A stretch of 64,000 bases of DNA from an uncultured Clostridia bacterium (GTDB lineage Bacteria > Bacillota > Clostridia > TANB77 > CAG-508), in contig CANQYM010000003.1 in NCBI GenBank assembly GCA_947628085.1, forward strand, positions 124,001 to 188,000. The letters run 5' to 3'. Numbering within the stretch: the first letter of the stretch is position 1; each line of letters opens with the position of its first letter. Shown piece by piece: positions 45,801 to 46,954 of the stretch. The notes below the pieces were generated by a model that did no database searches, was not told the DNA's origin, and saw only the letters and a list, made by a program, of their open reading frames with translations. Position numbers and translations under genes: made by a program.

Positions 45801-45882
45801 TATATCATCTCCACTTCTACAAATTACTATTTGTTTTACTATATAAAATAATAATTTTCCTGTAGAACTAATTCTTCATTTT

Positions 45883-46209: not shown

Positions 46210-46314
46210 ATATACTATTTCCCTACAATTTACTATTTATCTAATCAATTTTATATCATAAAAGATTATAATTATCAATTTATAAAAAATAATCAAAAAA
46301 TTTGTTTTGTTCGC

Positions 46315-46343
46315 TTGATTTTTATTTATCTTTGATTTATAAT
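46315..46343 (+). promoter_or_regulatory. promoter of the small membrane peptide mRNA
   Basis: TTGATT (46315-46320), 17 bp and TATAAT (46338-46343). The expected start site near 46350 coincides with the left inverted repeat. Confidence 0.75.
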
Positions 46344-46419
46344 CCCCTCCACAGGAAATGACAAAAAGCAGATGTGGTTTTGCCACCAATTTTTACGATT
46401 TTTCGTGGGAGAGGTGGTG

Positions 46420-46539
46420 ATGTTTATGGTTAAAGTTATACTATTTGGGATAATATCTTTAATGTTTTCTTTAACATTAAACGTTGCCTTGGCTACAGTT
46501 CTGTACAAGAACTGGGTTGATAAGCAACTACATAAATAA
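46420..46539 (+). CDS. 39-residue hydrophobic peptide, candidate type I toxin
   Basis: The peptide begins MFMVKVILFGIISLMF, forms one transmembrane helix to about residue 28, and ends with a charged tail YKNWVDKQLHK. The ribosome-binding region GGGAGAGGTGG precedes the ATG. A CCACC at 46383-46387 can pair with GGTGG at 46413-46417, around an inner ACGA/TCGT hairpin, and could hide that site. An own promoter lies upstream and a consensus antisense promoter faces it from 46660. Peptide shape, hidden ribosome site, 5'-3' pairing and convergent antisense RNA are all hallmarks of type I toxins. The sequence was not recognised as TxpA, Fst, Hok or Ldr. Confidence 0.7.
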   Translation: MFMVKVILFGIISLMFSLTLNVALATVLYKNWVDKQLHK

Positions 46540-46625
46540 AAAAATAAACCATTCTGCTTATGCCGAGCTAATGGTTTATTAAAACTATTATTGGCAAAAC
46601 CACGTTTGTGGATTCGTCATTTCCT
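46538..46625 (-). ncRNA. candidate antisense antitoxin RNA
   Basis: The transcript predicted from the promoter at 46632-46660 would start near 46625 and end at an intrinsic terminator. The stem is AATGGTTTATT (46570-46580, plus-strand sense) with AATAAACCATT (46543-46553), followed by a T-run on the minus strand at 46538-46544. It is about 85-90 nt, has no open frame, and is complementary to the 3' untranslated part of the peptide mRNA. Confidence 0.7.
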
Positions 46626-46631
46626 ATATTT

Positions 46632-46660
46632 ATTATATAGTCATTTATTTGTTTTGTCAA
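46632..46660 (-). promoter_or_regulatory. perfect consensus promoter of the antisense RNA
   Basis: TTGACA (46655-46660), exactly 17 bp, TATAAT (46632-46637) on the minus strand. It is a stronger match than the opposing mRNA promoter, as expected for an antitoxin RNA. Confidence 0.85.
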
Positions 46661-46753: not shown

Positions 46754-46954
46754 CTAGTAGTTCCATAATGCATTAATATCAAGTTCATTACATAAATCAA
46801 GCATTATAGAAGAATCTGGCATACCTTTTCCAGTTTCCCATTTTGATATTGCTCTATCTGTAATATTCAATTTTTCAGCTAGTTGAAATTGTGTTAAATT
46901 TTTATTTTTTCTGCACTCTGCAATAAATTTACCAACTTTTAATTTGTTTTTGTA
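46754..46954 (-). pseudogene. XRE-family helix-turn-helix remnant without start codon
   Basis: The minus-strand frame reads KLKVGKFIAECRKNKNLTQF, then QLAEKLNITDRAISKWETGK and GMPDSSIMLDLCNELDINAL before TAG at 46754. This is a standard Cro/CI-type DNA-binding domain. Upstream an in-frame TAA occurs with no ATG, GTG or TTG between, and the acetyltransferase gene overlaps its front end. The rest of the protein is missing at the C-terminus too, so it is a fragment. Confidence 0.75.

Follow-up and report, generated by a model that had tools for sequence, protein, structure and literature searches.

Background

The toxin mRNAs of bsrE and bsrG are 256-294 nt long, hold the SD in a stem and are overlapped at the 3' end by the antisense RNA (PMC6562991, PMC7430163). 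In Fst/par_pAD1 (RNA I/RNA II) the SD lies in a 5' stem-loop and the 5' end is sequestered (PMC7472228). The full-length toxin mRNAs of hok and aapA are kept inert by long-distance pairing of the 5' and 3' ends (PMC6733600). In Clostridioides difficile, CD2517.1-RCd8 and its relatives were described as convergent, overlapping type I modules present in multiple copies (PMC6563280). A further paper also served for comparison (PMC4147584). A literature search, confined to papers outside subscription, found no description of the toxin families treated here or of the exact layout.

The locus compared with these systems lies at positions 46315-46660 of the window, the whole 64,000-nt stretch of clostridial DNA that was analyzed. 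It resembles bsrG/SR4, txpA/RatA and bsrE/SR5 in its short hydrophobic peptide, its convergent antitoxin at the 3' end and the sequestration of its SD in a stem (PMC6562991, PMC7430163), and sister modules on the same RNA chassis carry Hol_Tox peptides (PF16935), a family that also has matches in B. subtilis. Unlike the TxpA/BsrG group, whose antitoxins measure 163-222 nt, the window module has a predicted antitoxin of about 88 nt, which begins where the end-pairing helix has its outer end, giving both RNAs a common opening sequence. The BsrG consensus in Rfam contains a 5'-3' helix and ends in a hairpin, whereas no plus-strand terminator was seen in the window. The module appears to work like BsrG/SR4, yet neither sequence test of membership in the TxpA/BsrG group recovers it: the peptide is not Hol_Tox and has no Pfam match, and the RNA does not match BsrG (RF01412) even at E 10. 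Other Rfam matches in the window (isrC and others) fell far below their cut-offs and were rejected.

With Fst/par_pAD1 the locus shares convergent promoters, a short membrane toxin, an SD in a 5' stem-loop and a sequestered 5' end (PMC7472228). The contrast with Fst par drawn in the preliminary description holds, since the end repeats of the window are inverted and not direct as are DRa and DRb. In place of a shared bidirectional terminator, the terminator of the window serves the antitoxin only (toxin-side U-run in 1/107 elements), and the Fst Pfam family has no match in the window peptide or in class A (see below). An end-paired toxin mRNA is also found in hok/Sok and aapA/IsoA (PMC6733600). 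The SD of aapA is hidden by the closure as such, whereas that of the window mRNA has a local anti-SD. The antisense RNA of the window covers the 3' region and not the leader, the latter being the target of Sok. The toxins of the C. difficile CD2517.1-RCd8 group, likened here by description only, have 34-59 aa and charged tails, and several are located in prophages. End-pairing of the mRNA, proposed earlier as a distinguishing feature, separates the module from Fst par, but it already occurs in hok and aapA (PMC6733600) and in the BsrG consensus. The novelty claimed for the module stands for the toxins, of which three classes are unnamed; the module as a whole is a clostridial variant not described before, placed near the TxpA/BsrG (Hol_Tox) group and built on a known principle.

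Organization of the locus

The preliminary description reported two convergent promoters with 17-bp spacers, a terminator on the antisense strand, pairing of CCACC with GGTGG, and inverted ends, and this sequence observation was confirmed in full (Table 1). Both promoters are also kept across homologues; the sequence around them is not. In 49 antisense sequences the TTGAC of the minus promoter is invariant and its -10 element nearly so. In 31 non-redundant regions upstream of toxin genes the T, A, A and T of the plus -10 element each reach at least 94%, and the TTG of the -35 element is present at 81-90%. Given its consensus promoter, the antitoxin is probably strongly expressed. A plus-strand terminator was searched for downstream and none was found. 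Upstream of position 46315 lies a stretch resembling TTTGTTCTGTTCGCTTG, which several genera have in common at their class A toxin promoters and which may be a regulatory site.

Table 1. Features of the predicted module, with positions in the window
Feature	Position	Strand	Basis
Toxin promoter, TTGATT-17-TATAAT	46315..46343	+	10/12 consensus match; conserved upstream of homologues
5' arm of toxin mRNA (GGAAATGAC...GCAGATGTGGTTTTGCCA)	46354..46385	+	pairs with 3' arm, -42 kcal/mol
SD-hiding structure, GCCACC (46382-46387) with GGTGGT (46413-46418)	46382..46418	+	predicted fold, covariation
Predicted toxin ORF, 37 aa MVKVILFGIISLMFSLTLNVALATVLYKNWVDKQLHK plus stop	46426..46539	+	start by homologue alignment; frame intact in homologues
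Predicted antitoxin RNA without an ORF, about 88 nt	46538..46625	-	promoter position, fold, alignment of 49 relatives; ends inferred
Antisense terminator, stem AATAAACCATT/AATGGTTTATT	46543..46580	-	U-run towards 46538; covariation
3' arm of toxin mRNA (TTGGCAAAACCACG...GTCATTTCCT)	46590..46625	+	pairing energies
Antitoxin promoter, TTGACA-17-TATAAT	46632..46660	-	12/12 consensus match; conserved in homologues

Peptide and reading frame

The peptide was first given as 39 residues. Its length is corrected here to 37 (codons without the stop at 46426-46536), with the start placed at the ATG at 46426 because the ATG at 46420 is lost in some relatives that retain the second one. Hydropathy reaches its maximum of 2.32 across residues 4-22, as in small hydrophobic peptides that span the membrane in one helix, and the single helix with a charged tail noted earlier is borne out, the tail being polar and charged and the last 12 residues having a net charge of +2. 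The window peptide has no family match in Pfam, NCBIfam or PHROG. The peptide is probably a toxin.

A strict SD-plus-ORF rule was passed by 107/111 extracted elements. The four exceptions are two mis-anchored copies with intact frames, a third element whose frame is intact, and one truncated element, the only one of the 111 to have lost an intact frame; shuffled interiors gave SD-led ORFs of 25-48 aa in only 11/1070 cases. Part of the 111-element set was retrieved by peptide similarity, of which the paired-end pattern scans are independent. Values of dN/dS are about 0.3-0.6 depending on the group, and codon position 2 is least variable, which shows purifying selection on the toxin frame; the RNA also constrains synonymous sites, and the ratio may therefore understate selection. 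For a possible mok-like leader ORF that would run from the 5' AUG into the toxin start, the stop falls between -20 and +10 relative to that start in 53/107 elements; in the other 54/107 it lies elsewhere or is absent.

Antisense RNA and terminator

Sequence and conservation indicate a non-coding antisense RNA with its own promoter and terminator that overlaps the toxin mRNA. The overlap is at the 3' end, at and downstream of the toxin stop codon. The predicted RNA begins with AGGAAATGAC, like the 5' sequence of the toxin mRNA, and folds with an internal CCAC-AAAC-GTGG hairpin. As described earlier, the minus transcript is predicted to end in a stem and T-run and holds no frame. The arms of the terminator stem (46543-46553/46570-46580) consist of many different paired sequences among the elements. 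At least six U in the nine positions after the stem are found on the antisense side of 105/107 elements and on the toxin side of 1/107, from which it follows that the terminator is not bidirectional and that the mRNA can extend to the 3' arm. In modules of classes C and D (L331, L318 and L292) the toxin ends in Lys-Lys-stop (AAAAAATAA or similar), which is the complement of the antisense terminator U-run; there the charged tail and the antitoxin terminator constrain each other.

Structure of the toxin mRNA

The pairing of CCACC (46383-46387) with GGTGG (46413-46417) at the ribosome site encloses a small hairpin (46390-46398/46403-46411). The anti-SD:SD helix changes on both sides among homologues (CCACC:GGTGG, CCTTAC:GTAAGG, CCTTTAAT:ATTGGAGG), and the SD is largely paired in the predicted fold of 49/49 mRNAs examined. 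Predicted folds and covariation thus point to an mRNA structure that restrains toxin translation. Computed SD accessibility is low in the full-length, the antisense-blocked and the 3'-truncated mRNA, the folds of the last still hiding the SD. Differences between these states are small and the full-length form is the more open in 39/49, a direction that leans only slightly against opening of the SD by displacement or trimming.

The full-length mRNA also has conserved long-distance 5'-3' pairing of the hok/aapA type. As proposed earlier, its inverted-repeat ends let it close on itself (46354-46385 with about 46590-46625), and the full mRNA folds closed. The 3' arm can be bound by the mRNA's own 5' arm as well as by the antitoxin. 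In the window it binds the former with -42.4 and the antitoxin arm with -70.2 kcal/mol; the means are -38.6 and -69.6 kcal/mol, in the same order in 22/22 elements, and the margin of about 31 kcal/mol is partly definitional, the antisense RNA being a perfect complement. The claim that the antitoxin carries the 5' sequence of the toxin mRNA is correct as to sequence, but the identity is partly a consequence of end-pairing combined with antisense overlap at the 3' end.

RNAalifold on a MAFFT alignment of the antisense sequences returned no pairs, probably through misaligned stems, and the helices were then tested by element-wise arm tests. Four helices covary: the 5'-3' end helix, anti-SD:SD, the leader hairpin and the antisense terminator. 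Swapping arms between elements weakens each of them (0/500, 22 representatives). Swaps confined to class A (24 representatives) or to class B (10) gave at most 9/2000, and the end-pairing helix 0/2000 within each class; related elements are not independent, and p-values from the covariation and arm tests overstate certainty. Three of four control comparisons were at chance and one reached 50/2000. The two arms repeat each other imperfectly: between them, 69 transitions keep a G-U wobble pair in the toxin mRNA and 14 break it, with the same direction in 20/22 elements; transversions (102 in the plain alignment) are uninformative here. This directional change indicates that the arms pair in the mRNA of the toxin strand; a repeat acting at the DNA level would not show it.

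Peptide classes and distribution

Peptides on this chassis fall into several classes. Class A, that of the window, is of the form MVKVILF...SLTLNVAL..., with diverged forms ending in ...WTNKE. Class B reads MIEAVLL...ETIIVFALIILVIILSK; its members are at best marginally like class A, although the ends of the element are common to both. Class C peptides (25-32 aa, ...KEIIKNIKK type) come from a different family within the order (L276) and, in a tandem array, from a different family within the taxonomic class (L292); their modules have the same end-pairing, built of different sequence. In the L292 array (G658:C17, about 42.0-43.7 kb) at least five type I modules are packed into less than 2 kb; their end arms are of two kinds and their five peptides all differ. 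Class D peptides are Hol_Tox, scoring 32 bits with PF16935 (cut-off 23.3), and were found with the same end-pairing in other families of the order; in one case (L330, 26.6 bits) a match to R1, a model of the antisense region built from sequence only, lies beside a Hol_Tox ORF found independently by the protein model. Profile comparisons detected no relationship of class A, B or C peptides to Hol_Tox, and class A and B members have no Hol_Tox match. By sequence the chassis thus appears to carry at least four unrelated peptides, one of them Hol_Tox (PF16935). This suggests that type I modules evolve by exchanging the peptide while the regulatory RNA is conserved, an exchange that would escape searches by peptide. 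The main peptides have no match in Pfam, NCBIfam or PHROGs, and the RNA has none in Rfam.

R1 has matches in 217/287 genomes of the order, with 1-12 copies each; in a 398-genome sample of the phylum it matched the source genome and three weak cases. The module is thus present in roughly three of every four genomes sampled from this order of mostly uncultured gut Clostridia, with up to 12 per genome. A DNA search found matches in 69/96 relatives, and a pattern of paired ends only in 18/96 genomes (reversed control, 0/96). The source genome has three copies: that of the window, a diverged one (L002) and a decayed one (L297). The last (G000:C1:30489-30609) consists of the antisense half and the tail of a class B ORF directly beside a tRNA-Leu-like gene, and is either a solitary antitoxin or a decaying remnant. 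The phage and plasmid collections gave no DNA match to the module, a class B peptide scan of viral contigs found none, and the paired-end pattern matches in viral contigs yielded no complete element on extraction.

Interpretation

The locus is by far best explained as a chromosomal type I toxin-antitoxin module (probability roughly 0.86), and the family is real, widespread and probably functional. The preliminary description held that a broken frame, or homologues showing a MITE, would speak against this reading, and both points came out the opposite way, the frame being conserved among homologous loci. Inverted ends, multiple copies per genome, varied genomic contexts and a relative (G001) that is empty at the matching site are what one would find if the locus were a MITE or similar inverted-repeat element with transposase sites for repeats, a chance frame and accidental promoters. 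The repeats, however, coincide with the two predicted transcription starts, their arms differ by wobble-preserving changes, and unrelated interiors with common ends still carry an SD-led membrane peptide; moreover, the SD and terminator helices covary, the frame is under purifying selection, and no target-site duplication was evident at the junctions inspected. The homologues show a functional RNA and ORF design and not a decaying MITE, an explanation that is taken as refuted and left with a very small probability. It is unlikely, though less remotely so, that the peptide is a small non-toxic regulatory membrane protein under antisense control, for example of stress or the envelope: the chassis could control any peptide and the neighbors are ordinary chromosomal genes, but multiple and tandem copies, a patchy distribution and swapped cargo that includes Hol_Tox are typical of type I toxins.

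Within the type I reading, the window peptide could be a toxin of its own on a shared chassis or a distant true member of the TxpA/BsrG (Hol_Tox) group diverged past recognition. The latter refines the best explanation and is compatible with it. Hol_Tox modules of the same order use the same chassis, and two elsewhere in the phylum (L333 and L334) pair strongly at their ends in the same way (z -6.8 and -8.7) and score 49.4 and 37.6 bits with Rfam BsrG, for which the curated cut-off is 55. Against such divergence stand the lack of a PF16935 match in the window peptide and class A, the 1.6% probability that a profile comparison gives for class A and the Hol_Tox set, and an RNA that BsrG does not match in the window; we regard it as possible rather than probable. 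The window module and the Hol_Tox modules probably share ancestry of the RNA chassis. What is new are the toxins, the compact antitoxin and the cargo swapping, the mode of working being close to TxpA/BsrG; specific to this case are three unnamed toxin classes and an antitoxin of about 88 nt that starts with the toxin-mRNA 5' sequence and outbinds it.

The proposed mechanism builds on the ORF, both promoters, the antisense terminator, SD pairing, the pairing of ends in the toxin-strand RNA and family distribution as established by sequence and comparison; transcription, toxicity, decay by RNase III and an activation step are added as we infer them. The plus-strand mRNA would encode the 37-aa single-helix membrane peptide, the putative toxin, and be produced self-silenced, its SD paired with the upstream anti-SD and its 5' end with its 3' end. 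The antisense RNA of about 88 nt would form a perfect duplex with the 3' region, much stronger than the end-pairing, which would open the closed mRNA and pass it to RNase III, and toxin would not accumulate. Were the antitoxin lost or its promoter silent, the stable closed mRNA would persist and be slowly activated, possibly through 3' trimming of the kind known for hok and aapA, which would free the 5' arm. More tentatively, the antitoxin may act by mimicry, its 5' arm being a strengthened copy of the toxin-mRNA 5' arm that competes for the 3' arm, with the mRNA arm kept weak by G-U pairs so that antitoxin binding would switch the mRNA from its closed to its opened form, in one chassis re-used across Clostridia for at least four unrelated toxin peptides. 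The modules link three unnamed toxin classes to the Hol_Tox toxins through a common RNA chassis, and constitute a large natural data set on how antisense binding of the 3' end alone opens an end-paired toxin mRNA.

Flanking sequence

The genes around the window module are ordinary chromosomal genes. The recurrent intergenic motif ACAAATTACTATTTATC is present in the window at 45817-45835 and 46225-46241 and also at L004 and L300; it precedes minus-strand genes and also lies at the left border of several copies of the module. Positions 46754-46938 hold the remnant of a truncated HTH_3 gene (Pfam, 1.6e-5), a fragment of which, about 175 bp long, recurs elsewhere in the genus.
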